Positions 160 to 47,120 of a DNA stretch of 47,120 nucleotides are shown one piece after another. The translations under genes and the position numbers were made by a program. This DNA comes from a virus. The notes under the pieces are model-generated. The model did no database searches. It worked only from the letters and a program-made list of their open reading frames with translations, and was not told where the DNA came from. Positions within the stretch are counted from its first letter, which is position 1. Every line of letters begins with the position of its first letter. The stretch is from IMG/VR virus record IMGVR_UViG_3300025154_000153, positions 1 to 47,120 of that record; one strand, 5' to 3'.

Positions 160-218
160 TCAACACCTTTCCCAGCGCCGCGGTGGGCTACCCGTGGCAC
201 CAATTCTCCGGAGGAGTG

Positions 219-575
219 ATGACACAGTATGAATCTGATATGCTTGTAGTGGATGAGCTACAAGCCAAAATGCAGGTAAAGCAAGAGCTGCCTTGGGTGT
301 TTGTTGTGGCCAGTCTTAACCACGTAACCTGGTACTTGAGCAAGTTACGTGAACGAAATATTTCGTTTTCACTACACGTTGCTTACAAACGAGTAGAATT
401 TGTTAATGGAAACGTGCTCCGCATCTTGGCTGTAGATGGAGATCCTGTGCACAGCTGTGGATTGAGTTTGAGTGGCTGTATCTTTGCAGCGTCTCCTTCT
501 GCTGATTTGGCAGATGAACTCAAACGAGCGTTGTTATACGGTGAGATGAAAGTCGCTGCTCCGGAGGAGCCATGA
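219..575 (+). CDS. Hypothetical protein, 118 aa
   Basis: I do not recognise this protein. The ATG at 219 is chosen because a strong Shine-Dalgarno (ggaggag, inside a CTCCGGAG element) lies eight bases upstream. An in-frame start at 183 lacks such a site. The middle is compatible with a small alpha/beta fold: a hydrophobic strand (WVFVVAS), a helix around WYLSKLRER, and later strands (VLRILAVDG, SGCIFAAS). The C-terminus ends in AAPEEP, encoded by a CTCCGGAG element that also gives the next gene its ribosome-binding site. The stop overlaps the next start as ATGA, so it is translationally coupled to the RuvC-like resolvase. Confidence 0.7.
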   Translation: MTQYESDMLVVDELQAKMQVKQELPWVFVVASLNHVTWYLSKLRERNISFSLHVAYKRVEFVNGNVLRILAVDGDPVHSCGLSLSGCIFAASPSADLADELKRALLYGEMKVAAPEEP

Positions 576-1141
576 TCGTCGGCGTGTCAATTGATCCATC
601 CATTGTACAGCACGGTTACTGCATCTGGTACGGCACCACGGCGGTATCCGCGGGCTTGTTCGAATGGAAGTCTAAGGGTACAATATCTGAGCGTTCCGTA
701 CGAATCGCACAGGCGTTCGCTACCTGGCTTCAAGCAGATTGGGTGGATCATTTGACGTGGGTTGCTGTGGAGGACCAGATTATCCGCCCTCGGTCGCCTT
801 ACAACCAGGCGATCATGACGTTGAAAACGGCGGCAGATACCGTTGCAGCGGTACTGTTGGAGCGCTTCAGTGCTCCAAAGGCGCCTGTTCAAGTGGTACG
901 TTATCTACCTGAGACCTGGAAAGGTTCGATGTCCAAACAAGCCACCGAAGTGCATATCGTCGGTGATGCCAATCATCTCGGGAGACTGTCTCCGGAGGAG
1001 CGAAACATCTTTACAAGGGAGGAGTGTTACATCCCGTACCGACAACGGACAGGGAAAACGCATAAGGACGGCCAAAAGAAAACAGCAAGTGACGTTTTTG
1101 ATGCCGTGGGAATAGGTCTGCGGTATCTGGGGCGTTTCTGA
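572..1141 (+). CDS. RuvC-like Holliday junction resolvase
   Basis: This 189-residue protein has the layout of an RNase H-fold resolvase of the RuvC/phage type. It starts GVSIDPSIVQHGY (Asp near residue 7), has an acidic residue after a strand in VAVEDQI (about residues 65-71), and ends with SDVFDAVGIGLRYL (about residues 171-184), where the last acidic metal ligands are expected. Such enzymes cut four-way DNA junctions so that replicating or recombining phage DNA can be resolved before packaging. The start is supported by ggaggag seven bases upstream and by the ATGA overlap with the preceding gene. A RuvC-fold nuclease with another role is possible. Confidence 0.8.
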   Translation: MIVGVSIDPSIVQHGYCIWYGTTAVSAGLFEWKSKGTISERSVRIAQAFATWLQADWVDHLTWVAVEDQIIRPRSPYNQAIMTLKTAADTVAAVLLERFSAPKAPVQVVRYLPETWKGSMSKQATEVHIVGDANHLGRLSPEERNIFTREECYIPYRQRTGKTHKDGQKKTASDVFDAVGIGLRYLGRF

Positions 1142-1158
1142 TTGAGAAGGAGTGTCAA

Positions 1159-1626
1159 ATGAAGTTTGTGGCGAAAATGACTGTAGAGGGTGATCTGACA
1201 CTGGCTGTGTCAGGAGTAGCCGTTGATGGCAGTTACTCCCCAATTGAAAGTCGAATGCTGTCGATTGCACAGGAGGTGCTCAGTAGACGAACTGCCAGCC
1301 CAGTGGAGATTCCGGTGTGGTCCATCACCTTCGACATCACTCCAGAGGAACCTACCGTCCAAGCGGCCCTCACCGAGCCGCTCGGAACGCGAATTCCGAA
1401 GGGTGAGGAAGATGAGTACCTGGCGCGAGCGACCAACAGACTGCGTTCCGGAGAGACCCGGCCGCAGATCGCCGACGCTCTGCGCCTTAAGAAGGACTGT
1501 GCCGCATTCAAGAGGCTCTGGACGAAACTGACTGAGCGTGAGATGGAGGCCGCCGTAGCCGCTCCGGAGGAGCATGAATCGGCAGGCATGGGCGTAGTTT
1601 GGATGCATTCTCCGGAGGAGCCATGA
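1159..1626 (+). CDS. Hypothetical protein, 155 aa, with possible helix-turn-helix
   Basis: I do not recognise the family. The ATG has a good Shine-Dalgarno (aaggag) nine bases upstream. The N-terminal half is strand-rich (VAKMTVEGDLTLAVSG, PVWSITFDI). Residues near 95-120 (EYLARATNRLRSGETRPQIADALRL) look helical and could form a helix-turn-helix, which is inference only. Three iterated elements add PEE segments (TPEEP, APEEH, SPEEP), two of them in a 20-residue C-terminal tail that may be little more than inserted repeat. The stop overlaps the next start. Confidence 0.65.
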   Translation: MKFVAKMTVEGDLTLAVSGVAVDGSYSPIESRMLSIAQEVLSRRTASPVEIPVWSITFDITPEEPTVQAALTEPLGTRIPKGEEDEYLARATNRLRSGETRPQIADALRLKKDCAAFKRLWTKLTEREMEAAVAAPEEHESAGMGVVWMHSPEEP

Positions 1627-1814
1627 ATCAGAGTCTTACAGGGATAGAGGTGGTGACGACATTGGCGCAGATCGTCTTTGACCTTATCAAGGCGCGCATC
1701 GAAGACGAACAGCGATTGGTGCTCGTCTTCGACCCCGAGACGTTGACAGACGAACAGTCGACTACGATTGCTGCCCTTCTGCCCAACGCCCTATATGTAA
1801 GGAGGACGAAGTGA
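1623..1814 (+). CDS. Small hypothetical protein, 63 aa
   Basis: The start ATG at 1623 follows ggaggagcc of a CTCCGGAG element and overlaps the previous stop as ATGA. The product is one amphipathic helical stretch (VVTTLAQIVFDLIKARIEDEQ) followed by a strand-like LVLVFDPETL and a helix. No family is recognised. It sits in a tightly coupled run (219-1996), so it is probably co-translated with its neighbours. Confidence 0.6.
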   Translation: MNQSLTGIEVVTTLAQIVFDLIKARIEDEQRLVLVFDPETLTDEQSTTIAALLPNALYVRRTK

Positions 1815-1996
1815 AAATCGAACTGGAAGGCGGCAAATACACAGCCTGTTACGAGGAAGCCACTGGAAAGTTGTATGCCCTTCGTCACGGCAAACCCTGG
1901 AGAGATTGTTGTGGTGACGGTTTCATTCTGGCCTTGATGCACAAGATAGCCGAGCTGGAAGGGCAGATACCGCCGGTTAGACCTCCGCAACGATAA
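1811..1996 (+). CDS. Small hypothetical protein, 61 aa, GTG start
   Basis: The gene begins with GTG at 1811, overlapping the preceding TGA (GTGA), with aaggagga upstream. Sequence: a short beta-like start (IELEGGKYTACYEE), Trp and two Cys near the middle, and a Pro/Arg-rich end. It is the last gene before a promoter at 2040. It ends with the 9-mer CAGATACCG, translated as QIP. Function unknown. Confidence 0.55.
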   Translation: MKIELEGGKYTACYEEATGKLYALRHGKPWRDCCGDGFILALMHKIAELEGQIPPVRPPQR

Positions 1997-2039
1997 CCGC
2001 TCTCCGTCTAATCCTTTGACACCCGCAAAAATTTTCTTC

Positions 2040-2068: not shown

Positions 2069-2130
2069 GTAGACAATCATCAAATACCAGATATCCTTAT
2101 CACAGTGGCGTTTGCCGCTCCGGAGGAGCT

Positions 2131-5100
2131 ATGCTCACGAAGGTCATTTCAGGTGGACAGACAGGCGCAGACCAGGCGGGGCTTGTGGCTGCACGAGATG
2201 CAGGTATCGCGACAGGTGGCTGTGCGCCGAAAGGTTGGAAGACGCAGGACGGACCGGCTCCGTGGCTTGGCACAGACTTCGGCCTTGTTGAACACGCTTC
2301 TCCGCAGTACCCTCCTCGAACCGAGGTTAATGCAGGCACGAGTGATGGCACACTTTGGTTCGGTCGCACGACGTCCGCGGGTTTTCGTTGTACACAGAAA
2401 GCCTGCATCAAAAATGGCCGACCTTTCCGTATCTTCCAAAGTGTCGAAGACGCAGTCAAGTGGATCACAGATACCGGTATCTGTGTGTTGAACGTAGCCG
2501 GCAACCGGGAGAACACCAATCCGGGAATCTACGAAAGCACATATTGGAACCTGACCGAAATATTGTGCTACACTACGATAACTACTGTCAGTCGTGAAAC
2601 TACTCCAGAGGAGCCGGCAACAAGATATTGGCACCACCCTGAATCTTCCTGTATTTTCACGACAGAAAACGGTGAGCAGGCTGAAACAGACGGCCTTGTT
2701 GAGGAGATCGAAGAAGCTGTCTATCTGGAATTGCAGTCCTTGTATGCTGCTCCGGCTAGCCCGGTATCTGCCGCCCCTGAGACGTCTTTGAAAGGGACGG
2801 TGCCGATCGCCGACCGTAACTACTTCGACTTTGAAACCACTTTAACTGATGGCTTCCGACTCGAGACGATTCCGATCTGTAAAGGTCTTTACGCGGATCG
2901 CCATTCGAGCGTGCTCCTCCCTTCTGACTGTGTGTCTTGGCTTCGACGACTCCTCCGGAGCGGAGCTGACCAACCCCCTGCCGTTCGGCCGAAGGGTGTG
3001 GGTTTTGCTCTTGCTTTCGATATGCTGCAATTCTTCCGTTGCCCGTCCTTTTCGACGGCGGATGTTCTGGAAATCCTTCAGGCGTATGCTGATGGACGCT
3101 TGATCGACATTCGCTGTGCGGATAAGCTGACTTCGATTCAGGCCGGGGACTTCGAGCGTAGGGTATTCACCCTTGCCGAAGCATACAAGGCACGCACCGG
3201 TAAAGTGATCGCAGACCAGAAAGGGATGAATCATCCGATAATTGGAGCTTACAAGAAAGGCGTCAAGAAGGATCAAAAACTGGCGTGGCTTAAGGCATTC
3301 GGAGCTGCCCAACGTGCGTATATCTCTGGTGACCGGACAGCCGCAGATACCGCGCTTGCCGCCGCGTGTGCCATTGTGCCCTTGGCAGATGTACCTTGGC
3401 GATACAAGTATGCCTTCCTATACGGTCTTCCACTTGCGATGTGGCCGGCAGAAGCGAAGGCTTACGTTATCGCAGATTGCAAGGAAACGGCCGAGCTTGG
3501 GGCTGTGGTGTGTTCCGCTGCCCAGGAGGCACAAGTTCCGATTGACCTGGATGGGGTTCTCCAGAGCGGTTATCTCGGACCGGATGGATTGCCGCTGCAC
3601 ACCGCCTTCGAGTCCGCGATGGACTTCGGATTGCAGCTCATGTGTGAAGTCGGTTTCTTTATCCGTGATGAGTACGTCTCAGATATGGTTCAGTTCTATG
3701 AGGAAACCCGTGCGGAGACGCAGGATGCCCTTTTCATGAAGGGTCTCATTAAGGTCCGAAAGACGGGCGAACACAAAGGAACCCTTGGCATGGACGCCAA
3801 AGAGGTTCAAGAAATGGTTCGAGATGCTTTTGTTTCAGAAGGACTCGAGCCTCCGTTGTCAGAAGGGGGTGAGGCTCAAAAAGCGGCTTGGACAGCCGGT
3901 AATCGCGATCCGAAGAACGCTCCGGAGGAGTGGGCCACGAAGCGGGACAAGAATACACTTCTGGAGTGTCCTGGTCGGAAAGCCGAACTATACCGGGCAT
4001 GGCAAACGGCGCAGAGAATGTGTGAAGTCAAACTTCCACTTCTCCAGAGAAAGCCGTTGCGAACAGCCATCAACAGCATGGTCATTACGAGCCGCACCTC
4101 CTCTGGAGCGGATGAAGAAAATGGCGGAGCGGAATTCAACTCTCAGAACCTTGATAAGGAGGGGGGTGTCCAACAGGCTTTTAGACCGCCGACAATGGAA
4201 GAGATGAGGGTCATCCAGAAGCGTCTTCACCTGCCGAAGTTTGAATTGGAGCCTGGCGACAGGTACGTCATTCTCGACGCGGATTATGCTACCTTGGAGT
4301 GCCACACCGGTGCCACACAGTTCATCTATCGACGAACCGGCAGAATGGGCTACCAGCCGGGCGTGAGTGAGCTGGCTGATGACCTCATGTTGGAAACCGA
4401 TATCCACTCAAAAATAGCGGTATCTGATTGGATCATGCGCGGATACCGTGCGGCGGATGGTTACGACTTCTCCGGAGCGGACTTCGATGAAGCGTACAAA
4501 TATTTCCGAGTACGGCGAAAGAAGGATCCTGAATACGCCTTGGCAAGGCAGACGAAGAAGCCGGTTATCTTCGGTGCCTTGGGAATGATGGGCGCATACC
4601 GGCTTGCGATGCAGGCGTTTAGTTTGCACGGTATAAAACTTGCTGTACACGAGAACGGTATGTGGGATCCTGCTGGTTCTGTGGAGGTTGCGAAACGATC
4701 TCTAGCGATCTGTCTTGAGCTGTACCCGGATATTGCAGAGCACAGACAGCAGGGGTATGATGGTGGCACCGATCAGCTGGCTTACTGCATGCCGAGCATG
4801 CTTCAGAGAGGACGTTGCTTGCCCACAGAATGGGGCAATTGGGCGATTCAGCCGGAAGCGGCCAGAATCTTTAAAAGGGCGATATTTGGCGACTGGCGAA
4901 AGATCTATGATGTAAAGCGGTACCCGGCATTCGCAGGTTGCACCGTATTCATCGGTGTTCATGATAGCATCGGTATGTATGTGCCTGAATCGCAGGTACA
5001 CGAAGCTTCTCTGGAGCACCGTCGGACTATGCTTGATTCAAAAGAGGTGTCCTGTCCCGGAATGACCAAAGACAGCCAGGTCGTTCCTGTAGCAACTGAA

Positions 5101-5241
5101 GTGATGGAGAAGAGCGCCGAACCGACGTACCGAGACGGACGGCTCGTCGTAACACCTTGTTCGATACCGGTTGCTAAGCGGCCGGAATTCCTTTGGCACA
5201 ATCATCCACGCGGAGCCTACGGCTGGCTCCTGGAGGAGTGA
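2131..5241 (+). CDS. SLOG/YpsA-like domain fused to family A DNA polymerase with 3'-5' exonuclease
   Basis: This 1036-residue protein replicates the phage genome. Residues 1-150 (KVISGGQTGADQAG, then CVLNVAGNRE) match the SLOG-type 'putative molybdenum carrier'/YpsA Rossmann fold, thought to bind nucleotides. After a linker holding an iterated element (TTPEEP), a DnaQ-like 3'-5' exonuclease starts at about residue 230 (YFDFET, exo I) with a YVIAD exo III motif near 444. The polymerase palm and fingers follow: motif A ILDADYATLE (about 713), motif B RQTKKPVIFGALGM (about 805) and motif C VHDSIGM (about 943). Motif C has Ser where Glu is usual. The ATG at 2131 is set by ggaggag nine bases upstream. 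The N-terminal fusion is unusual. No frameshift or stop separates the two parts. Confidence 0.93.
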   Translation: MLTKVISGGQTGADQAGLVAARDAGIATGGCAPKGWKTQDGPAPWLGTDFGLVEHASPQYPPRTEVNAGTSDGTLWFGRTTSAGFRCTQKACIKNGRPFRIFQSVEDAVKWITDTGICVLNVAGNRENTNPGIYESTYWNLTEILCYTTITTVSRETTPEEPATRYWHHPESSCIFTTENGEQAETDGLVEEIEEAVYLELQSLYAAPASPVSAAPETSLKGTVPIADRNYFDFETTLTDGFRLETIPICKGLYADRHSSVLLPSDCVSWLRRLLRSGADQPPAVRPKGVGFALAFDMLQFFRCPSFSTADVLEILQAYADGRLIDIRCADKLTSIQAGDFERRVFTLAEAYKARTGKVIADQKGMNHPIIGAYKKGVKKDQKLAWLKAFGAAQRAYISGDRTAADTALAAACAIVPLADVPWRYKYAFLYGLPLAMWPAEAKAYVIADCKETAELGAVVCSAAQEAQVPIDLDGVLQSGYLGPDGLPLHTAFESAMDFGLQLMCEVGFFIRDEYVSDMVQFYEETRAETQDALFMKGLIKVRKTGEHKGTLGMDAKEVQEMVRDAFVSEGLEPPLSEGGEAQKAAWTAGNRDPKNAPEEWATKRDKNTLLECPGRKAELYRAWQTAQRMCEVKLPLLQRKPLRTAINSMVITSRTSSGADEENGGAEFNSQNLDKEGGVQQAFRPPTMEEMRVIQKRLHLPKFELEPGDRYVILDADYATLECHTGATQFIYRRTGRMGYQPGVSELADDLMLETDIHSKIAVSDWIMRGYRAADGYDFSGADFDEAYKYFRVRRKKDPEYALARQTKKPVIFGALGMMGAYRLAMQAFSLHGIKLAVHENGMWDPAGSVEVAKRSLAICLELYPDIAEHRQQGYDGGTDQLAYCMPSMLQRGRCLPTEWGNWAIQPEAARIFKRAIFGDWRKIYDVKRYPAFAGCTVFIGVHDSIGMYVPESQVHEASLEHRRTMLDSKEVSCPGMTKDSQVVPVATEVMEKSAEPTYRDGRLVVTPCSIPVAKRPEFLWHNHPRGAYGWLLEE
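2466..2485. repeat. 20-bp perfect palindrome built from two CAGATACCG half-sites
   Basis: CACAGATACC is directly followed by its complement GGTATCTGTG inside the SLOG part of the polymerase gene. It is the most complete symmetrical form of the iterated 9-mer. It suggests that the frequent single CAGATACCG is a half-site. Confidence 0.9.
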
Positions 5242-10807: not shown

Positions 10808-11665
10808 ATGAACATGAACGACCGGTTTCTAGTACCACAAATGCATCCGACTCAGATCCTCTTGGCACTGCACGTGTGGGTAAGTGCCCAGAAGGCCCAT
10901 TGTGGGTTCCCCACTCGCACCGTGCACCTGAGCGACCTGGTCCAGGTGTGGGATCAGGCAAAGTGGAACCCTTCGGACCTTTCGAAGGGCTTCGGACTGG
11001 TCTGCGGAGCGTTCATCCCGTGTCGGATGATCGTGATTCCGGACGCCCCACATCCGTACATTCAGTTGGACCCAATTGCTTTCGATACCTACTACGGCGC
11101 TGGCGCAGCCTTCCATGCGATTGTTGCGTACCGCGACCGCCGGTTGGCTGGTGAGACGGCAGATAACGTGGCCGCCCGTGCCGCTTCTGCGGAGGACCCC
11201 GAGAACGCAATTCCGGCACCGATTGCACTGCCGATGGACCGGGAGATGGGCGTTCGGGCAAGTCGCCCGGGTGAGAAGGCCGCTCGCAAGACCGCCAGGG
11301 CGCACGTTGCCCTGGAACACCTGCCGCCTGATGGTGGTGCGACCGAGACCGCTCCGCAGATACCGCTCCCCTTGGAAGCGGTCGTATACAGCCTCCAGGG
11401 CACTTTGGCCTTGAAGGAACACAACACCCACCTGGCCGGTATGTCTCCAGAGGAGCGACAGGCCGATAACCGAAAGTGGTTTGCCGAGATGACTCGGACC
11501 CGCCCGGTTTCGCCGGCGACTGTTGACGAGTTCAACTCGGCCGCTTTGGGACGACTCCTTTCGAAGGAGGAGGCAAAAGAACAAGCCCTCGATACCCGAC
11601 TGCCCAAGATGATCCTGGACACCACCGATCTCGTTTTGGGCCAACTGACGTCATTGGAGGACTAA
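10808..11665 (+). CDS. Hypothetical protein, 285 aa
   Basis: No family is recognised. The ATG at 10808 follows ggaggagcgaagggagataccg, so both iterated words lie in its ribosome-binding region (CTCTGGAG and a GATACCG form). A second ATG two codons later is possible. The N-terminal 110 residues (FLVPQMHPTQILLALHVWVS and FGLVCGAFIPCRMIVI) look like a folded alpha/beta domain. The middle is Ala/Glu/Pro-rich and probably flexible. The C-terminal region is helical. Base composition is higher in G+C than in the flanking small genes. It may be a structural or DNA-associated protein, but this is a guess. Confidence 0.65.
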   Translation: MNMNDRFLVPQMHPTQILLALHVWVSAQKAHCGFPTRTVHLSDLVQVWDQAKWNPSDLSKGFGLVCGAFIPCRMIVIPDAPHPYIQLDPIAFDTYYGAGAAFHAIVAYRDRRLAGETADNVAARAASAEDPENAIPAPIALPMDREMGVRASRPGEKAARKTARAHVALEHLPPDGGATETAPQIPLPLEAVVYSLQGTLALKEHNTHLAGMSPEERQADNRKWFAEMTRTRPVSPATVDEFNSAALGRLLSKEEAKEQALDTRLPKMILDTTDLVLGQLTSLED

Positions 11666-14836: not shown

Positions 14837-14890
14837 TGTGGGGATGCGGGTCCTGGTCACCCCGTCCGGTGCTCCTGCGGAGGAGCGGAT

Positions 14891-15000
14891 GCCGGGTGCC
14901 GGGTGCCGGGTGCCGGGTGCCGGGTGCCGGGTGCCGGGTGCCGGGTGCCGGGTGCCGGGTGCCGGGTGCCGGGTGCCGGGTGCCGGGTGCCGGGTGCCGG
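14891..15000 (+). repeat. Heptanucleotide array GCCGGGT, about 16 copies
   Basis: About 110 bases of uninterrupted 7-bp units, G/C-rich, sitting directly after a relaxed hairpin element (gctcctgcggaggagc). Because seven is not a multiple of three, copy changes would shift any frame, which supports the tract being non-coding. Confidence 0.95.
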
Positions 15001-15927: not shown

Positions 15928-16046
15928 TCTTTTGCCTCGTCGGAATACGACGAGTAAACTAGCTCGATACCGGTGGTCAAGCCCGGCGCTCTGACAAAAT
16001 GTCAGGGATAGCGAGACAGAACCGTAACTCCAGAGGAGTGTTAGAA

Positions 16047-17591
16047 ATGAAAGTAACCAAGCCAGGCAAGTTAGCAACGAATCAGAACACGATCACTACC
16101 CCGGCCACTACCCCGGCCACTACCCCGGCCACTACCCCGGCCACTACCCCGGCCACTACCCCGGCCACTACCCCGGCGGCATCCCCGGCCAGCAAGCCGG
16201 CCCCCAGCAAGCCGGCCCCCAGCAAGCCGGCCCCCAGCAAGCCGGCCCCCAGCAAGCCGGCCCCCAGCAAGCCGGCTCCCAGCAAGCCGGCCCCCAGCAA
16301 GCCGGCTCCCAGCAAGCCCGCCGTCCAGAAATTTACGAACGACGACATCGCACGGCTCAACGCAGCGATGGATGCCGCTATGGGAGCTGCGTTTGTTGTT
16401 CAGGCATTGGACACAGCGTTGATCGAGGCAATCAAGGAAGCGCAGTCAACCGGTCTGGCCCATGTGCCGACCTATGAGCAGGTGCCCGTCTCGACGCTCG
16501 TGCCGTTCGATCCGGCTGTCCATGGACCGTTGCTCGGTGAGGATGACTGGAGTTTTCTCTCCGACGACGCGCGAATCGCGGCAGGTAGCCTCACGTCGCT
16601 CGAGGAGCTCAAGGCGTCGATCAAGGGCGCGGGTGGTATCATCTCGACGCTTGCTCCGAGCGTGCTTCGTATTCCGGCCGGATCGGAGGACGGTGCATAC
16701 TGGGATGTGCTCATCAATGGGCACCGTCGAACGCAGGGATTGACCGAATTGATCGCGGAAAACGCGCCGGTCGATCCGAACGTGTGGGTTGACGTGTACT
16801 CTCCGGAGGAGCGCATCGCGATACAGGCACTGAAAGCTGCGGCGAACGTTGCTCCGAAAGCAGCGGAGGCAACGGAAAAGTTCGGTCTCCTCGTCGGATT
16901 CAAGGTCGCTGGCTGGACCGATGTGCAGTGTGCAGAGCGGCTCGGGTATGCGCTCAATTCCGAGGGGAAGCCGAGCGGGGCATACTTCAATCTGTTGCGC
17001 ATCAGCAAGGCAGATTCGGAGATCCAGCGGGCATTCCTGGAGAGCCGCATCAGCCTGAAAGCGGCGAACGACTACGCGACGATCGGCATCCAGATCGGTG
17101 GCGAACCGGGACGGGTGGCAAGTCTCGAGGCAATGGCTGCCGGCACCCGCCGGCTCGAGGCACTGGCAAAGGGGCGCGCGGCGAAAGGTACCGGCACGGG
17201 CGAAACCGGCACGGGCACGGGCGAAGGGACCGGGACGGGCGAAGGGACCGGGACGGGCGAAGGGACGGGTGACCGGGAAGCGCGCGAGGCAGACGGGCTT
17301 TTCCATCCGGCCTTCAGGGGCGGAAAATCCGTTCAGAACGTGTACAAGAATGTGCCGGAATCGTCGGCTGTCAGGTTTCCGCTCAGCCTGCTCGGTGGTA
17401 TGTCGAAGATCGGCCCGGCCGAATTGGCCGGACGCATCCAGACGGCGCTCAAGACAGCTCCTTCCTACGGTGCGATGCTGGCAGTGGTCGCATGGTCGTT
17501 CGGGTTCAAGGCACCGGACGGGATGACTGGATTCGGGATGCCGGAGCTTGACGATCTTCTCGTTTTGTTGGACAAGGCCGCCGCGAAGTAA
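16047..17591 (+). CDS. ParB-like DNA-binding protein with repetitive N-terminal tail
   Basis: This 514-residue protein begins at the ATG at 16047, after actccagaggagtgttagaa. Residues 15-92 are low complexity: about six TTPA repeats, then eight PAPSK repeats, written by 12-bp and 15-bp tandem repeats. The ParB/KorB-type core follows: VPVSTLVPF (about 150), LKASIKGAGGII (about 192), the NGHRR box (about 224), then a predicted helix-turn-helix (WTDVQCAERLGY...YFNLLRIS, about 291-325). A Gly/Thr repeat (GTGTGEG) lies near 388-410. ParB proteins bind parS sites and spread along DNA. The palindromes at 17802-18247 just downstream are plausible targets. No ParA is encoded nearby. Confidence 0.85.
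   Translation: MKVTKPGKLATNQNTITTPATTPATTPATTPATTPATTPATTPAASPASKPAPSKPAPSKPAPSKPAPSKPAPSKPAPSKPAPSKPAPSKPAVQKFTNDDIARLNAAMDAAMGAAFVVQALDTALIEAIKEAQSTGLAHVPTYEQVPVSTLVPFDPAVHGPLLGEDDWSFLSDDARIAAGSLTSLEELKASIKGAGGIISTLAPSVLRIPAGSEDGAYWDVLINGHRRTQGLTELIAENAPVDPNVWVDVYSPEERIAIQALKAAANVAPKAAEATEKFGLLVGFKVAGWTDVQCAERLGYALNSEGKPSGAYFNLLRISKADSEIQRAFLESRISLKAANDYATIGIQIGGEPGRVASLEAMAAGTRRLEALAKGRAAKGTGTGETGTGTGEGTGTGEGTGTGEGTGDREAREADGLFHPAFRGGKSVQNVYKNVPESSAVRFPLSLLGGMSKIGPAELAGRIQTALKTAPSYGAMLAVVAWSFGFKAPDGMTGFGMPELDDLLVLLDKAAAK
16095..16316 (+). repeat. Two coding tandem repeat arrays (12 bp and 15 bp)
   Basis: About six copies of a 12-bp unit (accccggccact, TTPA) run from 16095 to about 16175, then about eight copies of a 15-bp unit (cccagcaagccggcc, PAPSK) to about 16316. 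A few units carry a T/C change (ggctccc), so the array is not perfectly homogenised. Confidence 0.95.
17206..17272 (+). repeat. 18-bp coding tandem repeat (Gly-Thr-Gly-Glu)
   Basis: Three near-identical units (gggaccgggacgggcgaa) encode GTGTGE near the C-terminus of the ParB-like protein, preceded by degenerate copies. Probably a flexible linker. Confidence 0.85.
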
Positions 17592-17648: not shown

Positions 17649-17801
17649 GTCGTTCGCCCTTGCGCCTAGCAGAGCCCTTGCTAGCGATCTTCCCGGTACC
17701 CTTACCCTTACCATTCCCTGCCCGTCGTTCGTTCGTCCACGGGGCGCTAATGCGTTCTGGCCTTTCAGCTTTTCCGCTAAGGATCTGACTATTTGAATGT
17801 G

Positions 17802-17815
17802 TGCCAGAAGTGGCA
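17802..17815. promoter_or_regulatory. parS-like palindrome TGCCAGAAGTGGCA
   Basis: TGCCA and TGGCA arms around GAAG. The same palindrome with AAAG recurs at 18088-18101 and 18137-18150, and weaker copies are at 17857-17870 and 18234-18247. It lies 210 bases downstream of the ParB-like gene, a usual position for a partition site. Confidence 0.55.
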
Positions 17816-17990
17816 GACTACTCCGGAGAACCAAACAGTCAGCGGTATCTGGATGCTGCCATTTCTGTCAACGTCTAGTGACCAGTTGATTGTTGATGAT
17901 ACAGTCAACTGTTGTTAGGTATACTGACTAACAGTTTGTTACTCGCTCCTCTGGAGTACATATGCACATATGTACACATAGATATATAAA

Positions 17991-18011
17991 CATATTCCCA
18001 TAGAGGCATAT
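17991..18011 (-). repeat. Long inverted repeat, right copy
   Basis: CATATTCCCAT-AGA-GGCATAT, the reverse complement of the 14483-14503 copy apart from the central triplet. It sits in A/T-rich DNA. Confidence 0.75.
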
Positions 18012-18070
18012 ATCTAACCTGTTGTGTATACATCTAACAGTCTGTTTTTGCGTACTACCATCTAATAACC

Positions 18071-18151
18071 AGTTGACTATTAGACAGTGCCAAAAGTGGC
18101 AGAGGAGCGTCAAGTAATTAGTTGACTATTAGACGATGCCAAAAGTGGCAG
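18071..18151 (+). repeat. Two 32-bp direct repeats (iterons) with parS-like palindromes
   Basis: AGTTGACTATTAGAC, two variable bases, then TGCCAAAAGTGGCAG, at 18071-18102 and again at 18120-18151, 49 bp apart. An inverted, partly degenerate copy of the first half (GTCTAATAGTCA) is at 18206. These are likely binding sites for the ParB-like or a replication protein. Confidence 0.85.
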
Positions 18152-18276
18152 CCCGATTCCTCAATGAAATCAAGCACTTAGCAAACAGTCAAGGGCTAAA
18201 AAGACGTCTAATAGTCAGTTGATTACTTGAAAATGACATCGATGGCAGCCGAAAACCTCAATGAATTCATGCACTT
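18146..18276 (+). repeat. Two copies of a TGGCAGCC...CCTCAATGA...GCACTTAG repeat
   Basis: Copies at about 18146-18181 and 18243-18277 share TGGCAGCC, a gap, CCTCAATGAA-TCA and GCACTTAG. Shorter relatives lie at about 13951, 14648, 14716 and 15089 on the other side of the ParB-like gene. Confidence 0.7.
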
Positions 18277-18477
18277 AGGCGGGTGGGGCCCCCCCCAGGG
18301 GCCTCGAGCACACCAGAAAAGGCTACCACGAAATTTTTTCCAGAAAAACACTTACAAATCGAGTCCTTCCGAACAAGTTCTCTGGAGAAGTAACTTCAAA
18401 CAACCGTTTTAGCCAACTGAGTAGGTTCTTCGGAGTACCGAACTTCAGTATTAGAGGCTGTTTTGAAATTTTTTCGC

Positions 18478-39251: not shown

Positions 39252-41042
39252 GTGGTGGAAGTTTCTGAGTACGCTCGACGAGAGTTAGCGGTAAAGATTC
39301 AACGCTTCTCTAACCTTGGAGACGACTCCAAAATCGAAAAGGTTATTGAAGCACTCCAGAGGCTCATTGGCTGGGCCGGCGCGGTATCTGCTACACTCGG
39401 AGAAAACTTTCCATCGAAAGAAGAGATTTACGATCAGGTAATTGAGGCTCTTAGATTTGATTTTGATACTGATGCTCTGGTGGCTGTTCTCGACGGGGGC
39501 TGGGATGCAGGCCAGATGCAGCCTGTCAATCTCGCGCGGTTAAAGGCGCAGGCAGATACCGCTTGGCGACAGGCGTTACTACGTAACCCTGTCACCGGTT
39601 TGATTGATACAGGTATCGCCAATCTCACATCAATTTTTCGTAACGACCCCGCTTGGGCCGGCTGTCTAGGTTACGACACCCTGCTCAAGAAGGTCACGAT
39701 CGAACGACCCTTGCCGCTGGCGCTCGATGCTTCGACTCTGGACGAAATAGCTCCGGAGACATCTGTCGTCAAAGACTCACTCACTCAGGCACCGGATTTC
39801 GTACTGCCGGCCGTCATTTCACACCCGACAGCCTTCGGTCTTATGTCATCTTGGTTCTCAGAGGCGTGGCAACTTTCTGTGAACAGTAAGAATGCGCTGA
39901 TTCAAGCCGCTCAAACGGCGGCTATGTTCCAGCGCTCTAATCGGGCGTTGGAGTGGGCTAAAAAACAAGTGTGGGGAGGTGAACTGCGGCTGATACCACC
40001 GCACTACGGCCAAAAAGATGCTCCGGAGGAGCCGAGTCGTCTAGCTTTATGTTTTACGGATGACATTGAATACGCCACCAGAGTTGTCACTCCTTTTCTT
40101 CGGATATTCGTTCTGTCGTTTGTTGCTCGGTTGCTAAAACCCGGCTGCAAAGTTGACACACTGCTTGTACTTGAAGGGCCACAAGGATTTCGTAAGAGCA
40201 CGTCGATGGCCCTTCTTGTTCCACATAAGATTTATTTTTCTGACTCCCCTCTAGAACTTGGGGATAAGGAAGGGCTCCAGGCGGGCAGTAGTATTCTCAT
40301 GCGGGAAATTTCGGAGCTTGATAAGCTCCTCTGGAGAAAGAACGCGGCCGAGCTTAAGGGCTGGGCACGTTCGAGCACAGATCACTACCGTGCACCTTAT
40401 GACACAGAATTTAGGATGTATGCACGAACTTTCGTTACCTACTGTACAGTAAACGCAGAGGGAGCTTGGCTCAACGACTCAGGCAAACAGCGCGGATATA
40501 TGCCGATAACTGTGCACCGGAATATCGATACAGACTACATTGCTGAGTTCCGAGGGCAAATTATTGCAGAAGCTATTGCGCTTTTAGCAGCAGGCTGGAG
40601 TTACTTTCCGAACGCGGAAGAGACACTTCTCATAAATGAGGAGATGAATACTCGCCTGGTTCCGAACGCCCTTACGGAAGTAATTCGAGAAGACCTGTAT
40701 AGGTATGGGCTTACATTCGTCCAAACTATGGATGTTGCGCAAGTGCTGCTAGATGTAACGAAAGAACGGATTGACAGTAAAGTTAGCGCAAATATCTCCA
40801 CAGCAATGACAGCCCTTGGTTGGTCTCAAGGGCGTGAATGGCGAGGGCCAAGTCGACTTGTCGGCTGGAAAGCCCCGACAACCTGGCGGCCAGCTCCGAC
40901 AGGCTGGGATAGCGTAGCAGCGCCTCGCAAGGGACAATTCGCCCGGCCGGTCGGCACTTCTCCAGAGAAGTCGCAGTGGGCAGATGACTCGAAAGAGAAC
41001 ATCGTACAGTTTGATTCGCTTCGAAAGAAAGGCGGTATCTGA
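39252..41042 (+). CDS. VapE-like superfamily 3 type helicase/ATPase
   Basis: The 596-residue protein carries the virulence-associated E/primase-helicase type ATPase: Walker A LVLEGPQGFRKST (about residue 305; Arg stands where the usual GxxGxGKS has Gly), Walker B-like SILMREISELDKL (about 348), LKGWARSSTDHYRAPY (about 370), sensor-like TFVTYCTVNAEGAWL (about 398) and GYMPITVHRNIDTDYI (about 420). It follows the primase gene, as in many phages with a primase/VapE pair, and should unwind the fork. The start GTG at 39252 (GTG also at 39255) has a weak site (cagaggtac). The stop overlaps the next ATG (TGATG). Confidence 0.8.
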   Translation: MVEVSEYARRELAVKIQRFSNLGDDSKIEKVIEALQRLIGWAGAVSATLGENFPSKEEIYDQVIEALRFDFDTDALVAVLDGGWDAGQMQPVNLARLKAQADTAWRQALLRNPVTGLIDTGIANLTSIFRNDPAWAGCLGYDTLLKKVTIERPLPLALDASTLDEIAPETSVVKDSLTQAPDFVLPAVISHPTAFGLMSSWFSEAWQLSVNSKNALIQAAQTAAMFQRSNRALEWAKKQVWGGELRLIPPHYGQKDAPEEPSRLALCFTDDIEYATRVVTPFLRIFVLSFVARLLKPGCKVDTLLVLEGPQGFRKSTSMALLVPHKIYFSDSPLELGDKEGLQAGSSILMREISELDKLLWRKNAAELKGWARSSTDHYRAPYDTEFRMYARTFVTYCTVNAEGAWLNDSGKQRGYMPITVHRNIDTDYIAEFRGQIIAEAIALLAAGWSYFPNAEETLLINEEMNTRLVPNALTEVIREDLYRYGLTFVQTMDVAQVLLDVTKERIDSKVSANISTAMTALGWSQGREWRGPSRLVGWKAPTTWRPAPTGWDSVAAPRKGQFARPVGTSPEKSQWADDSKENIVQFDSLRKKGGI

Positions 41043-41839
41043 TGTCTTACGTTAAGCCGCCTTTCAGTTGGAGCGGAGGAAAGCGAAAACTTCTACCTCA
41101 CATTCTTTCACAGATACCGTACAGGATTCGGAACTTTTATTCTCCATTCCTTGGTGGAGGTGCTCTGGAGATAGCCGTATTACAGACAGCAACAGTTGAA
41201 GGAGACGTTTTTCTAAGCGACGTTAACCCTCGCCTGATCCAACAGTGGAAGTTTATTCGCGACTCGGTATCTGCCGTCCTCGAGGACCTTGAATGGCATG
41301 ACTTAGAGTGCGATTTCGAGCAGGTGAAGGCAGACTACAATGCCGGGTTGCAATTGCCAGGCTCGTTTATCTATCTCGTTCAGAAGTGTTTCAGTGCGAA
41401 GTACCGAGAGAACAGCGACGGTACTTTCAATGGAACCTTCGCAAGTGACGGTGGAAAACCTTTGCCTTCTGAGGTTCAATTAAAAGAACTGGCTGATCTC
41501 TTGCGATTGACGGTTCTCCGGAGCGGTAGCTGGACCTGGCTCCTCGAACAGGAGATCGGAGAAGGTGACGTCATTTTTTGTGACCCGCCCTACGTCGGTA
41601 CGGCGGTCAATTACGCAAAGGACGGCTGGTCTCCGGAGGAGCAGGAGCATCTCATTCGGTCAATGGAGTACTGGGCTTTTTGCGGTGCAGTGTGCCTTCT
41701 CACCGAAACGGATGCAGTACTGGAGACACTTCGCTATTTAGGTACGAGATTCGATTATGAAGCAGTGAAGAAAGTCCACACCATTTGTGGACTTTCAAAT
41801 GAAAACACGACGGAGGTCGTCGTCCGAATCTTCGGATGA
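41042..41839 (+). CDS. dam: Dam-like DNA adenine-N6 methyltransferase
   Basis: The order is that of D12-class enzymes: FSWSGGKRKLLPHIL (about residue 7) and FYSPFLGGGALE (about 32), the SAM-binding segments, then VFLSDVNPRLI (about 56), and the catalytic IFCDPPYVGT (about 178). The 265 residues are of normal length. It probably methylates adenine in GATC-like sites to protect the phage or mark its DNA; the target cannot be read from sequence. The ATG follows aaagaaaggcggtatctg. The stop overlaps an ATG (ATGATG), but the next likely start is at 41884. Confidence 0.88.
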   Translation: MSYVKPPFSWSGGKRKLLPHILSQIPYRIRNFYSPFLGGGALEIAVLQTATVEGDVFLSDVNPRLIQQWKFIRDSVSAVLEDLEWHDLECDFEQVKADYNAGLQLPGSFIYLVQKCFSAKYRENSDGTFNGTFASDGGKPLPSEVQLKELADLLRLTVLRSGSWTWLLEQEIGEGDVIFCDPPYVGTAVNYAKDGWSPEEQEHLIRSMEYWAFCGAVCLLTETDAVLETLRYLGTRFDYEAVKKVHTICGLSNENTTEVVVRIFG

Positions 41840-42442: not shown

Positions 42443-44239
42443 ATGCCTTATGACTCCCTCAAGAAAATTGACCTGCACCTCTGGCCGCATCAGGTGCAGT
42501 TCGTTGATGATATTCAGCGCGTCGAAGCTGGATGTCTCAATCCGATCGGTACAATGGCCACGGGTGGAGGGAAGACACGAGCCATTGTCGAGGATGTTCG
42601 TCGAACGCTAATGGGCGGCCAGTTTAGTACAATCGGCATCTGCTGTCATTCAGTAGATGTGTTGAGACAGCTCCTTGTAGATAATGATGGAAAACCCGGT
42701 CCCCTCACGGAACTCCGGATACCGTATGGTTGGGTTGCTGCTGGTGAGCAGGAGAATCAGTTAGCGCCGATTCAACTGATCTCTACTGCGACACTTCTCC
42801 GGAGACACGACTCCCTCAAGTACAGCCACCTAATGAAACGTTTACAGTCCAAAGGCACCAAACTCATCTTTGATGAAGTTCATCGATCTTTGTCCGGTAA
42901 AGTAGGGGAACTAGTTTGGACCTGGGACGCCTTCGTGAGTGGATATACTGCCACTCCCTGGAATAAGACACTCCCCCTTCGCTTCGACGAGATCGTTCCA
43001 GGTCCAATTCCGTCTGTGCTGCAGGCTATGGGATATTTGGTGTACAGCCGTGTAATAGAACCACCAGATACGGTATCTGCTGACGGGCTACCTGTACAAG
43101 CCGGAGATTTCTCCTCCGGAGCAGTCAGCAAGTTAATGCGGGAAAATCCCGGTGTGACGAAACGTATTGTACGTTTTATTCGGTCTGTTATTCCACACGG
43201 CAAAGTATTGTACTTCGTAGCCGACAAATTACACGCAGCTCATGTTGGTGCTGCTTTAGATGAGATTGGGGTTCCAAATGAAGTTATTCTTGCTGACACC
43301 GAAGGGCGTGCTGAGGCCCTCGGACGAATTCGCCGGTCAGTTGATACGTCTGGCATCTCGATTGACGTCCTCAGTACAGGAATTGACATCCCAGATCTCC
43401 GGAGTATTGTTTTCCTTAGACATACAATGTCTCCTATTGTCTTCTACCAGCAGTGGGGTAGAGGACTACGAACAGCTCCTGGAAAGGAATACTGCTGGAT
43501 TTTTGACGTTGTTGGTAACATTGAGCGAATGCGAGGCATGGGGTTTCCCCCTCCAGAGGATCTTGATGAGTACCTTTTCGAAGGAACTCGCAAGAAAGGA
43601 ACGCGAGAGATCGGACAAAAGACTTGTCCAGAGTGTGGAACACTGAATGGGTCCATGCGTTTACGATGCGTCGAGTGTGCTTATCTCTTCGAAGAGACTT
43701 GTCCTCAGTGCAAAGCAGACCTCTTCTTTAATCAAAACACTTGTCGAAGATGTGGTTACGACAAACGGACAGTCGAAGAGAGATTAGCCGCAGAAAAAGA
43801 GGCTGCGGCAAGGCTAGAGGAGCTCCGGAGAAGCTTCGAGGAAAATTTTTTATTTGACTCAACAGAGGAAATCAGCTATACTTATAGTAGATTGTGTCAC
43901 GAGGCTTGGGCCGGTCGAAAGGCAATGGACGAACCGCTGAGATGGCTGAAAAGCATTCTGCGGGGCGGAACGGCCTTAGAGCTTCTGGCACCATATACGT
44001 TGCACACACTGTGGACGGCGGAACAGGTGGCAGGAGCAACAGAAGCTTGCTTCCGGGAGTATGCCGAGCGACTTTTGCAATACAGATACCGCAATGGCGG
44101 GATGATTCCTGGAACTGATGTCACCCTTCTGATGGGTTTGCAGTTTGGGCACCAGGGACGACAATTTTTAACAGAGAACTATACGACATTTGACAGAAAG
44201 ACCGGTGGGAGTCTTTGGTATCTCCGGAGGAGAAAATGA
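42443..44239 (+). CDS. Superfamily 2 helicase with C-terminal zinc ribbons
   Basis: The 598-residue protein has MATGGGKTRAIV (Walker A, about residue 37), SGYTATP (motif III, about 166), FDEVH (motif II, about 138), LSTGIDIPDLRSIVFL (about 313) and YQQWGRGLRT (motif VI, about 338), so it is a DEAD/DEAH type nucleic acid translocase like those of phage or SSL2/UvsW type. Residues 395-450 hold four CxxC pairs (CPECG, CVEC, CPQC, CRRCG), two zinc ribbons. The tail contains a coiled coil (AEKEAAARLEELRRSFEEN). It may act in recombination or replication restart. A promoter lies in its 3' part. Confidence 0.85.
   Translation: MPYDSLKKIDLHLWPHQVQFVDDIQRVEAGCLNPIGTMATGGGKTRAIVEDVRRTLMGGQFSTIGICCHSVDVLRQLLVDNDGKPGPLTELRIPYGWVAAGEQENQLAPIQLISTATLLRRHDSLKYSHLMKRLQSKGTKLIFDEVHRSLSGKVGELVWTWDAFVSGYTATPWNKTLPLRFDEIVPGPIPSVLQAMGYLVYSRVIEPPDTVSADGLPVQAGDFSSGAVSKLMRENPGVTKRIVRFIRSVIPHGKVLYFVADKLHAAHVGAALDEIGVPNEVILADTEGRAEALGRIRRSVDTSGISIDVLSTGIDIPDLRSIVFLRHTMSPIVFYQQWGRGLRTAPGKEYCWIFDVVGNIERMRGMGFPPPEDLDEYLFEGTRKKGTREIGQKTCPECGTLNGSMRLRCVECAYLFEETCPQCKADLFFNQNTCRRCGYDKRTVEERLAAEKEAAARLEELRRSFEENFLFDSTEEISYTYSRLCHEAWAGRKAMDEPLRWLKSILRGGTALELLAPYTLHTLWTAEQVAGATEACFREYAERLLQYRYRNGGMIPGTDVTLLMGLQFGHQGRQFLTENYTTFDRKTGGSLWYLRRRK
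43854..43882 (+). promoter_or_regulatory. Sigma-70 type promoter inside the helicase gene
   Basis: TTGACT (43854-43859), 17-bp spacer, TATACT (43877-43882). It shares ATTTTTTATTTGAC with the promoter at 9869 and ATCAGCTATACTTATAGTA with that at 24925. The encoding segment (NFLFDSTEEISYTYS) differs in composition from the rest of the helicase. Confidence 0.6.
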
Positions 44240-44523
44240 AAGTTACACAACAACCGGTTGGAACAGTGGTTACGAAGAATCCAGTACCTGAGGCGGCTAT
44301 CGAAGTAGCTCCAGAGGAGCCGAAGAAGCTGGTTCTAACTTTTCAAGTGACGGACTCTTTTCCGGTCCTTGAGCGAAAGCTCAAAGAGCGGTATCTGCGG
44401 GCAGTGATTAAGAGTCGTCGGGATTGGCCGCGTGGACGCAAGGAGATTGCGGAGGCTACCGGATTGAGCGCACCAACCATAACTGCGTGGTGTGCTGAAT
44501 TTGACATTCCGCTCCCATTCTGA
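44236..44523 (+). CDS. Helix-turn-helix protein, 95 aa
   Basis: The ATG overlaps the helicase stop, with ctccggaggagaaa upstream. The C-terminal half contains GRKEIAEATGLSAPTITAWCAEF, a clear helix-turn-helix of the Fis/homeodomain-like type. The N-terminal half is probably a short tail (VAPEEP is an element) and a strand-rich segment (LVLTFQVTDSFPVL). It is a candidate transcription regulator or DNA-binding factor. Confidence 0.7.
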   Translation: MKVTQQPVGTVVTKNPVPEAAIEVAPEEPKKLVLTFQVTDSFPVLERKLKERYLRAVIKSRRDWPRGRKEIAEATGLSAPTITAWCAEFDIPLPF

Positions 44524-44539
44524 TTCTCTGGAGCACTAA

Positions 44540-46180
44540 ATGGATCTTTGGGATGAAGCAATGGCGGTTCTCAGACCGCCTCTGAGGGTTACTATGGACT
44601 TTATTGAATTCGACGGTCCTGCGACACTTCTCGAAGAAGACGATCTGTTTCTCATTGACGGTTACATCGGTGTCGTACTGAGTGTGGATGCAGATACTGT
44701 GCTCTTTGAGTGGAGACAAAGTCCCGATTGTACCCGCAATGGTGTGCAAGAGCGGCTGTCCCTTGAGGCAGAAGGGCGGATACTGTTCTCACAGAACTCC
44801 GGGCATCGAAGAGTGTCTCCAGAGACTCTTACCGAGGGAGACTGTTTCATTCTCGGGGTACTGATGTGGTTTGTTTGTGAGCCTGGAAAGTGTCGTGTGG
44901 TGTCTCCTGTAGGAGACACGGAGTTCGAAGCTCAGACCTATCCGTTGCCTGTGGACGGAGCTGTACTTGTTCTTAAGGCACCCTTGGCAGAGCATCTGCT
45001 TCGGGCGCAATATCAGGCAGTAAATCTGCCTCCTCCGGAGGAGCTTTTCGCTTCTCTTAAAAAGAAAGGACCAGAAATGAACTGTCCCACGTTGGATACA
45101 CCTTTGAAGGACATTCAGGGGTTTCCGAGAAAGCTGGTTAAGGCGGTGTGCGACGCGTATCAGGGCGCTGTCTCAGTAGCGGATGTTACGTTCGAACACC
45201 TTATGGCAATCTCGTGGAACGACCTGTTCGTCATTCCGGGCTGCTGGGCAGGAGTCGGTGGCAACTCAGGATCGAACGCCCTCGCCGTCTTTTTGCAGAA
45301 GTGGGGAATCGAAAAGCAGAACATGGGCGAGCACTTTGTCATGCCGGGTTTGCCGGCCGAGGTATCTCCGGAGACCGAAGCCGAAGCCGAAGCCGAAGCC
45401 GAAGCCGAAGCGGTATCTGACGAGGCCGAGGGGATCGACGGTACGGTAGATGTGTTGGAGTACATTCAGAGTATGTACCCTGATTTTGACGCGATCTACA
45501 CGATGCAGATGATCAGTGACGGCACCGGACGTAAGCACACTCAGCTCCTCGAACTCTCAGGATACTCCTGGGAGCAACTCGTAGAGAAGTGTGGCGAGAC
45601 CTTGTCTCAGCATCTCTACGCGGTGCTACTGAGAGACGTTGGAGAGACGCTCGAGTTTCCGTTCCGGCCCTTCCTGCGACAGGATGTCCGAAACGACGGC
45701 ACGCCCCTTCTGCCGGAGACAGATACCGCATTGCCTGTCAAGGAGACCGAAGTCGAAGCGCTGCCGGAAATGCTGGACAACCGAAATTCTGTAGCGGATT
45801 TTCTGACCTGCCCGTTGAGCGAGTACTTCGACTTCTCCGGAGCGGTGTCGAAGGGTTTCGCCTCGGCAGTGACGGACTTCGTCGGTGAGACTTTCGTCGG
45901 TTGGACCTGGGAAGAGGTATCGGCGTGCTTCGCAGATGCCGAGTCCGCTGTGGCCTTCTTCTCCTGGGTCACTGAGAACTACGCCCTGGAGAACGCTATT
46001 CAGGAGGAGGATGGAACACCGATGTTCGTTTGGGCTACTCCGCAGGAAGTGGAAGAGGAGACACCCGAACCTGAGGCTTTGACTGCCGAATTGACCGCAT
46101 GGATCCAGGCGTTCGACGCACTGACGATCGAAGACAGGATTGCCGGCCTTGCCCGGCTCAATGAAAATATCCCATTCTGA
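44540..46180 (+). CDS. Large hypothetical protein with acidic repeat and HhH-like segment, 546 aa
   Basis: I do not recognise the protein as a whole. Residues 1-175 are strand-rich (FLIDGYIGVVLSVDADTVLF). Residues 180-260 begin with an internal Met and include QGFPRKLVKAVCDAYQGA and SWNDLFVIPGCWAGVGGNSG, resembling helix-hairpin-helix segments that bind DNA. A Glu/Ala run (about residue 280, EAEAEAEAEAEAEAV) is written by GCCGAA repeats. Two further similar segments (ELSGYSWEQLVEKCGETL; FVGWTWEEVSACFADA) repeat a short W-E/D-x-L/V pattern. Start: ctctggagcactaa. G+C rises after about 45077, where another start with gaaaggaccagaa exists, so it may be two genes fused. Confidence 0.6.
   Translation: MDLWDEAMAVLRPPLRVTMDFIEFDGPATLLEEDDLFLIDGYIGVVLSVDADTVLFEWRQSPDCTRNGVQERLSLEAEGRILFSQNSGHRRVSPETLTEGDCFILGVLMWFVCEPGKCRVVSPVGDTEFEAQTYPLPVDGAVLVLKAPLAEHLLRAQYQAVNLPPPEELFASLKKKGPEMNCPTLDTPLKDIQGFPRKLVKAVCDAYQGAVSVADVTFEHLMAISWNDLFVIPGCWAGVGGNSGSNALAVFLQKWGIEKQNMGEHFVMPGLPAEVSPETEAEAEAEAEAEAVSDEAEGIDGTVDVLEYIQSMYPDFDAIYTMQMISDGTGRKHTQLLELSGYSWEQLVEKCGETLSQHLYAVLLRDVGETLEFPFRPFLRQDVRNDGTPLLPETDTALPVKETEVEALPEMLDNRNSVADFLTCPLSEYFDFSGAVSKGFASAVTDFVGETFVGWTWEEVSACFADAESAVAFFSWVTENYALENAIQEEDGTPMFVWATPQEVEEETPEPEALTAELTAWIQAFDALTIEDRIAGLARLNENIPF
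45378..45410 (+). repeat. Coding hexanucleotide repeat GCCGAA
   Basis: About five and a half copies of gccgaa (Ala-Glu), followed directly by gcggtatctg (VSD). It forms an acidic linker. Slippage would change length in steps of two residues without shifting frame. Confidence 0.9.
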
Positions 46181-46267
46181 TCGGTTGTCTGACCACCCGG
46201 TCGGTCCTCTGGAGAACTAATCCGCCGCCTTGGAAGAGGCGGTATCTGATGAAAGAAAGGAAGCGAA

Positions 46268-47120
46268 ATGCCAGTTCAACCTCCGAAGAAGTCCGCCGCT
46301 CAGCAGGCTGCGGACTATGAGAACCTTGTGCAGTTTGTGGGCCACCAGGCCCGCAGTTACAACAACCCGTCCGTGAAAGAGCCGGGTGAGTATACGAATT
46401 CCGCCCGGCTCGGGTGGGCCGAGTCCTCCGACGGAACGAAGTATCCCTGTGGGTATATCTTGAATGCCGGGGCATTCAAGATCGCCCAGGATGGGGCTGA
46501 CATATACTACATCATCGAAGGAACCGTTTTGGCGTGCGGCTCCGGAGCAGTCGGGTCGCTCCGAATCAAGAAAGGGGAGTACCGGCCTGTAGATCTTACT
46601 CCAAACATGGGCGGATCGATCATGCAGCTCTACCGTCGACAAGCAACGGAGGGGCTTTGCAAGAAGTTCTTCCGGGCATTCAGCGGAATGAGCGAGGTCG
46701 AATACGACAACCAGGGGCAGGACTATGCCGATCAGCTCTGGGATAATCTCTGGAAACACCAATCGCTGGTCGGAATGACGTTCAAGGTAGATGTAATCCC
46801 GAAAGAGCGTTCTGAGGATGAGTACGGTCGGGACAGTACGACCTTCCCGAATGCCAGTATCTACCCGCTCTGGGATCCATGGGAAGATTTGTCCGTACTA
46901 CCTGAGCAAAAAGGTTGGGAAGGAATCGAGCTGATCGGTGCGCCGGACTACGAGGTTCTCCAGAGCAGCAATCCGATTCCGCTGATGACAGTCACGAAGG
47001 CCGCTCCTCCGCCGGTGTCCAGGCCGACGGTTCCGGCTGCGAAGGCCGCTCCTCCACCGGTGTCCAGGCCGACGGTTCCGGCTGCGAAGGCCGCTCCTCC
47101 ACCGGTGTCCAGGCCGACGG
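46268..47120 (+). CDS. Hypothetical protein with C-terminal 15-residue repeats, runs off the right edge
   Basis: The ATG at 46268 has gaaaggaagcgaa upstream. The first 240 residues are folded: a helical start (AAQQAADYENLVQFVGHQARSY), strands (CGYILNAGAFKIAQDGADIYYIIEG; GSLRIKKGEYRPVDL), a helix (EGLCKKFFRAFSGMS) and GMTFKVDVIPKERSEDEYG, which resembles phage ssDNA-binding proteins of the DUF669 type by general pattern only. From 46997 the 15-residue repeat (AKAAPPPVSRPTVPA) begins and continues at position 1 of the window, ending at 159. A Pro-rich tail on an ssDNA-binding-like domain would fit a replication organiser, but the function is unproven. Confidence 0.7.
   Translation, partial: MPVQPPKKSAAQQAADYENLVQFVGHQARSYNNPSVKEPGEYTNSARLGWAESSDGTKYPCGYILNAGAFKIAQDGADIYYIIEGTVLACGSGAVGSLRIKKGEYRPVDLTPNMGGSIMQLYRRQATEGLCKKFFRAFSGMSEVEYDNQGQDYADQLWDNLWKHQSLVGMTFKVDVIPKERSEDEYGRDSTTFPNASIYPLWDPWEDLSVLPEQKGWEGIELIGAPDYEVLQSSNPIPLMTVTKAAPPPVSRPTVPAAKAAPPPVSRPTVPAAKAAPPPVSRPT
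46997..47120 (+). repeat. 45-bp tandem repeat, right window edge
   Basis: About 2.75 copies of the same unit as at 1-144; the second and third copies have A instead of G in cctccRccgg. The edge cuts the unit after acgg. Confidence 0.95.

Follow-up and report, generated by a model that had tools for sequence, protein, structure and literature searches.

Results

The window analysed here, positions 1 to 47,120 of IMG/VR record IMGVR_UViG_3300025154_000153 (47,120 nucleotides), belongs to a contractile-tailed phage that encodes a Mu-type portal, head protease, sheath and baseplate wedge, together with a VapE-type primase-helicase, an SF2 helicase, a PD-(D/E)XK nuclease and a Dam-family methylase. 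Through its genes and its non-coding DNA runs an array of the 8-bp palindrome CTCYRGAG, which has no strand and, by counts, positions and spacing, extends from 206 to 46965, essentially the range given in the preliminary description. The earlier estimate of about 114 copies, or one per about 410 bases, captured the strong excess but not the exact figures, which are 122 copies and a mean gap of 386 bp. By centre, 62 copies have CG (CTCCGGAG), 31 have TG (CTCTGGAG), 29 have CA (CTCCAGAG) and none has TA (CTCTAGAG), while a control word occurred once in the same 47,120 bases. Against a third-order Markov model built from the phage sequence itself, a comparison set as a test beforehand, CTCCGGAG was expected 4.7 times and the TG and CA forms 2.2 and 1.7 times, about 9 in total versus the 122 observed, and in a ranking of all 8-mers CTCCGGAG stood first (z 37) with the TG/CA form second. 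The excess is confined to these centres, in that the thirteen other centres of CTCNNGAG words sum to 6, and decayed copies are rare.

In genes, as provisionally called, 18, 47 and 32 copies begin at codon positions 0, 1 and 2, respectively, and the residues encoded at sites include SPEE, SGA and LRS/LRR. Another 25 copies are non-coding, at a density of 3.45 per kb versus 2.43 per kb in coding DNA. Shuffling synonymous codons left 8.2 +/- 2.8 copies, compared with 98 coding copies observed. Because the Markov and codon-shuffle counts fall so far below the observed number, codon usage and base composition are ruled out as the cause. The occurrence in all frames, the non-coding copies and the synonymous-codon shuffle also support the view that the pressure acts on DNA and not on protein, as had been proposed from the presence of the word in every reading frame and in non-coding sequence. 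The excess of CTCYRGAG is thus a real and strong array at the level of DNA.

The repeated unit is larger than the core. When half-sites were pooled, information at positions -4 to -1 outside the core was 0.27, 0.24, 0.64 and 0.18 bits and fell to about 0 further out, giving a 16-bp dyad, RCTYCTCYRGAGRAGY, composed of two half-sites RCTYCTCY. Flanking bases had been described as tending to be complementary, and this held in the sense that both arms share a flank consensus, RCTY / RAGY, but the arms do not covary: over 20 distances, complementary flanks nowhere significantly exceeded their frequency in shuffles, and immediately next to the core they were slightly rarer. A hairpin or cruciform would covary, while a dimer reading two half-sites need not. 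The absence of covariation, with centres that are strand-symmetric (TG 31 versus CA 29), rules out an RNA hairpin or a cruciform. Scored with a matrix derived from C-centre halves alone, halves with the weaker T centre had the better flanks (p 0.018), and the TA centre, in which both halves would be weakened, was expected 7.4 times and never seen, as selection on total binding affinity would give. Orphan half-sites were few (11 + 14 = 25, versus 74 full half-sites inside sites). Information per site is about 17 bits (14.4 in the core and 2.7 in the flanks); this is twice the 8.6 bits that would suffice to locate 122 sites in the phage alone and, by our own arithmetic, close to the 15-16 bits required to single them out in a bacterial chromosome.

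Copies are spaced evenly and avoid one another. The coefficient of variation (CV) of the gaps was 0.54 versus 0.98 for random placement (Kolmogorov-Smirnov p 2e-7), and there were 7 gaps below 100 bp where 27 were expected. Gene structure fails to explain this: when sites were re-placed at random within the same genes, the CV was 0.84 and its 0.1 percentile 0.70. If the role of each site is limited to its own neighbourhood, an even arrangement would follow. In a position weight matrix scan, near-miss sites with strong flanks tended to lie farther from core sites than chance, with p from 0.02 to 0.11 depending on the threshold, so their placement in gaps is suggestive only; examples from that scan are GCTTCTGCGGAGGACC at 11183..11198 (no strand) in a long gap and GCTCCTGCGGAGGAGC at 14871-14886 in the largest gap. 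A 7-mer, CGGGTGC, is present in sixteen tandem copies at 14886-15000, within a largely non-coding stretch of low site density at 13.7-15.4 kb.

The origin of copies could be addressed in one gene with solved relatives, that of the Dam-family D12 N6-adenine methyltransferase (41042..41839, plus strand), the other genes having no close enough homologue. Its three copies, at residues 41-43, 159-161 and 197-199, encode ALE, LRS and SPE, and in a HMMER alignment to the DpnII methylase (2dpm) all three fall at positions without an insertion in the phage protein. Homologue alignment had been proposed as a way to separate insertion from substitution and, judged by it, these three copies are substitutions, because they sit where the protein has no insertion relative to Dam-family structures; a substitution origin is general to the remaining copies only by extension. 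The idea that a short palindrome spread itself by inserting genome-wide, which was among the roles first suggested, would account for the high copy number of one sharply defined word, but it does not sit with testable copies that are not insertions, few decayed copies, copies that avoid each other and flanks with graded information, and we consider it very improbable.

Two phage proteins may be considered as readers of the array. The first is a divergent ParB-family protein of 515 codons at 16047..17591 (plus strand; alternative open reading frame start 15999), with a ParB/Srx-like N-domain bearing LINGHRRTQG, a helix-turn-helix (HTH) and low-complexity tails. In hhalign comparisons with 21 ParB proteins it gave 92-93% probability and 29% identity over 136-140 columns covering the N-domain and HTH, whereas shuffled versions and 12 other window proteins scored at most about 2%; two PHROG ParB families also matched it, weakly. 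One array copy lies at the ribosome-binding site of its gene (16024..16039, core 16028-16035, no strand, from the sequence), and about 11 array copies lie 8-24 nt upstream of start codons. The second is a 95-residue protein at 44236..44523 (plus strand) with a predicted C-terminal three-helix HTH, for which AF2 placed helices at 43-57, 61-75 and 79-88 with a predicted local distance difference test score of about 75 there; its HTH matches are weak (E 0.14 or worse).

Scans for three sites in IMG/VR returned only chance matches, tandem repeats within proteins and further assemblies of this phage, namely IMGVR_UViG_3300025073_000623 (100% over 15.2 kb and 99.97% over another 16 kb) and IMGVR_UViG_3300025010_001216 (100% over 5.2 kb). 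Each scan would yield about 0.25 matches per 47-kb phage at this density, and a few relatives may therefore have escaped notice. No close relatives of terminase, portal or DNA polymerase turned up apart from the same phage or single domains, and the papers searched describe no phage case of such an iterated array. The Gordonia phage GEazy showed an apparent enrichment in CTCCGGAG (5 versus 0.67), but the flanks are missing and it was set aside as chance. In IMGVR_UViG_3300033146_005641, an AT-rich phage of 183 kb (stretches L010 and L013), CTCTAGAG/CTCCAGAG words form clusters in a small number of repeat regions, spaced by multiples of about 63 bp.

It had also been supposed that the host would share the word. 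A scan of about 85,000 GTDB species did not bear this out: it returned 84 stretches, with copies mostly clustered in local repeats and no genome-wide array, and whole-genome counts for 15 of the genomes concerned were near background. Because a 4-Mb genome at phage density would yield about 20 matches (0.24 per 47 kb), a dense host array among these species would have shown, while a sparse array or an unsequenced host would not be revealed. In Desulfonema magnum the count was 683 versus 198 for the control, an excess partly explained by tandem repeats. Two stretches from Neolewinella (L083 and L039) and one from Bifidobacterium (L092) carry CTCCGGAG or CTCTAGAG densely in local runs, at intervals of about 72 bp; these appear to be long tandem repeats in proteins and have no relation to the phage array.

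The phage genome has further features. A second iterated word, CAGATACCG / CGGTATCTG, has 57 copies between 834 and 46248, 23 of them on the forward and 34 on the reverse strand; its component 8-mers are expected 4-12 times, and single-base variants are rare. Its copies lie both within and outside genes and are followed by a pyrimidine-rich 3′ flank, its placement is independent of palindrome position, and its spacing is not even (CV 0.84, within the random range). Four copies abut a likely start ATG (AGGCGGTATCTGATG; 23784, 36918, 41033 and 46240), and at 2468-2483 two copies pair up as CAGATACCGGTATCTG. That a phage should have two such sharply defined words is stranger than its having one. 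Downstream of the ParB-like gene, a repeat search found iteron-like direct and inverted repeats (TTGACTATTAGAC, TGCCAAAAGTGGCAG; 17801..18278, no strand), a possible replication origin. Identical 45-bp tandem repeats encoding a TVPAAKAAPPPVSRP repeat lie at both contig ends (1-144 and 46995-47120), and the contig is probably a circle broken within this repeat. At 2101-5241, a DNA polymerase seems to carry a circularly permuted YpsA/SLOG domain fused to its N-terminus. PADLOC matches were limited to methyltransferase and helicase matches.

Discussion

The present study describes an array whose count, dyad, graded half-sites, even spacing and independence of reading frame are properties of the sequence itself. 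The even spacing, the 16-bp extent, the lack of a TA centre and the second word CAGATACCG go beyond the preliminary description. Among the possible roles listed in the preliminary description, a protein-binding site is the best reading of a graded 16-bp dyad, while the self-spreading palindrome also listed there does not stand. Judged by its anatomy, the array quite probably consists of protein-binding sites. Taken as a whole, the explanation we favour, on which our judgement is evenly balanced, is that these are two-fold-symmetric 16-bp sites for a dimeric DNA-binding protein, kept by selection, with the ParB-family protein as the best candidate.

That the divergent ParB-family protein would be the reader is a tentative suggestion; among the candidates it ranks first. 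The sites of ParB and Noc are palindromes of 16 bp built from two 8-bp half-sites (PMC7383237, PMC8429893, PMC4331003), and the phage combines a dyad of the same dimensions with a gene for a ParB-family protein. Noc is a cytidine triphosphate (CTP) switch (PMC8429893) that coats DNA from about 70 scattered sites (PMC4331003); the phage sites are likewise many and scattered and have an invariant C at half-site position 6, as in Noc-binding sites (NBS), where R201 of Noc reads that base (PMC7383237), and a K in the ParB-like protein aligns to R201. Divergent orphan ParB-fold proteins, of unknown role, have been reported in phages (PMC12704722). The differences are that there are 122 sites in 47 kb here compared with a few parS or about 70 NBS per chromosome, that the phage half-site is RCTYCTCY, that Box III is lost and that ParA was not found among the scanned proteins. 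Several observations weigh against this protein as reader. It is not recognised by sequence searches against Pfam, NCBIfam and PDB; of its CTP boxes, Box II is kept as GHRR and the ENxxR of Box III is replaced, and because that motif is missing a CTP clamp is uncertain. No ParA partner was seen among the proteins scanned, which cover part of the open reading frames, and Noc likewise has no ParA-binding motif (PMC12704722). In six other phages that encode ParB-like proteins, no iterated palindrome was present. No gene exceeds its own in third-position GC (0.74), and sites in it are sparse, which may point to recent acquisition. Noc has an N-terminal membrane helix; the N-terminus here is low-complexity TTPA/SKPAP, in which no amphipathic helix was recognised by eye.

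The array may be compared with other known systems. The cyanobacterial word HIP1 (GCGATCGC), to which the palindrome was first likened, is also a short palindrome and, in genomes rich in it, recurs about every 300-700 bp. The analogy is good for density but not further, as HIP1 has no extended symmetric flanks and its spacing is nearer random, while the phage array is an even series of 16-bp dyads; in HIP1-rich cyanobacterial DNA of similar density the CV was about 0.8, the flanks carried no more than 0.09 bits and single-base deviants fell mainly on the outer bases, and because of these three features the phage array differs from it in kind. HIP1 also occupies whole cellular genomes, where it is tied to methyltransferases (PMC4390886), whereas the array is in a phage; the only methyltransferase found in the phage is a Dam-family N6-adenine enzyme. 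SlmA and MatP are dimeric nucleoid proteins with palindromic scattered sites, but their sites are far less dense, chromosomal and of other sequences. Stoperators of cluster A mycobacteriophages number some 20-40 per genome and are mostly intergenic. They resemble the phage array in being many sites across a phage genome for one phage-encoded DNA-binding protein, but they are asymmetric, are bound by a monomeric repressor and end transcription (PMC9283540), while the array is symmetric, has 122 sites and is mostly coding.

Alternative explanations concern who reads the sites, or whether anything does. Another phage protein, either the 95-residue HTH protein or an unannotated repressor or nucleoid-like protein, could use them as a whole-genome silencer, a condensing lattice or a stoperator-like set. 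The site anatomy would be the same, an HTH protein of fitting size is encoded and many window proteins have no family match, but the HTH matches are weak and the 16-bp length fits ParB-family sites better, which makes this unlikely in our view. It is likewise unlikely that the phage matches a host word, such as a landmark, repair or nucleoid site read by a host protein or present as a genome-wide signature: HIP1 shows that whole genomes can carry such words, yet, where a 4-Mb genome at the same density would give about 20 matches, the genomes with multiple matches had local protein repeats or counts near background, and no other virus searched carries the array, a virus contig from the same IMG sample-number series among them.

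A HIP-like word could also arise from a DNA methyltransferase acting with mismatch repair or a mutation bias, in which case TG/CA centres would be deaminated methyl-CpG. The CCGG core, TG/CA variants of the kind that 5-methylcytosine deamination would give, the missing TA centre and the methyltransferases that accompany HIPs (PMC4390886) are all consistent with this. However, HIP1 flanks carry at most 0.09 bits with CVs mostly of 0.72 to 1.3, versus 0.64 bits and 0.54 here, the TG/CA halves carry better and not random flanks, and the sole methyltransferase found is a Dam-like N6-adenine enzyme and not a CCGG cytosine enzyme, while the word has no GATC; such an origin is improbable. A signal in RNA, with GGAG as a Shine-Dalgarno core or the palindrome folding, would suit the copies just upstream of start codons, but with most copies inside genes, symmetry between strands, arms that do not covary and an Rfam search without a match, it is scarcely credible.

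If the sites are read as we favour, by a dimeric protein that would most likely be phage-encoded binding each 16-bp dyad, several patterns could be brought together. We infer protein binding and a probable phage origin of the reader; by analogy with ParB and Noc, the ParB-like protein would load at each site, and the loaded protein could hold or spread across the roughly 390 bp to the next, and might in this way coat or condense the whole phage genome or label it as self in the host cell. Such a coating or marking role is possible but rather doubtful, and is suggested by analogy. Information of about 17 bits per site, together with even spacing, may fit a protein that recognises phage DNA everywhere and only phage DNA. 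More speculative, and on the doubtful side, is that the array provides about 122 evenly spaced loading sites, running through genes, for the phage's own ParB-like clamp, so that every segment of about 400 bp would be marked against the host by a chromatin-like self-tag.

Bacteria have scattered arrays of protein-binding sites, those of Noc and SlmA being examples, and some phages carry a few dozen repressor sites. To our knowledge, no virus is known with a protein-binding array every 390 bp through its genes. If this interpretation is correct, selection for a DNA landmark would be so strong that it influences the amino-acid sequences encoded by most genes of the phage, and the phage could encode a nucleoid or self-marking system of its own.

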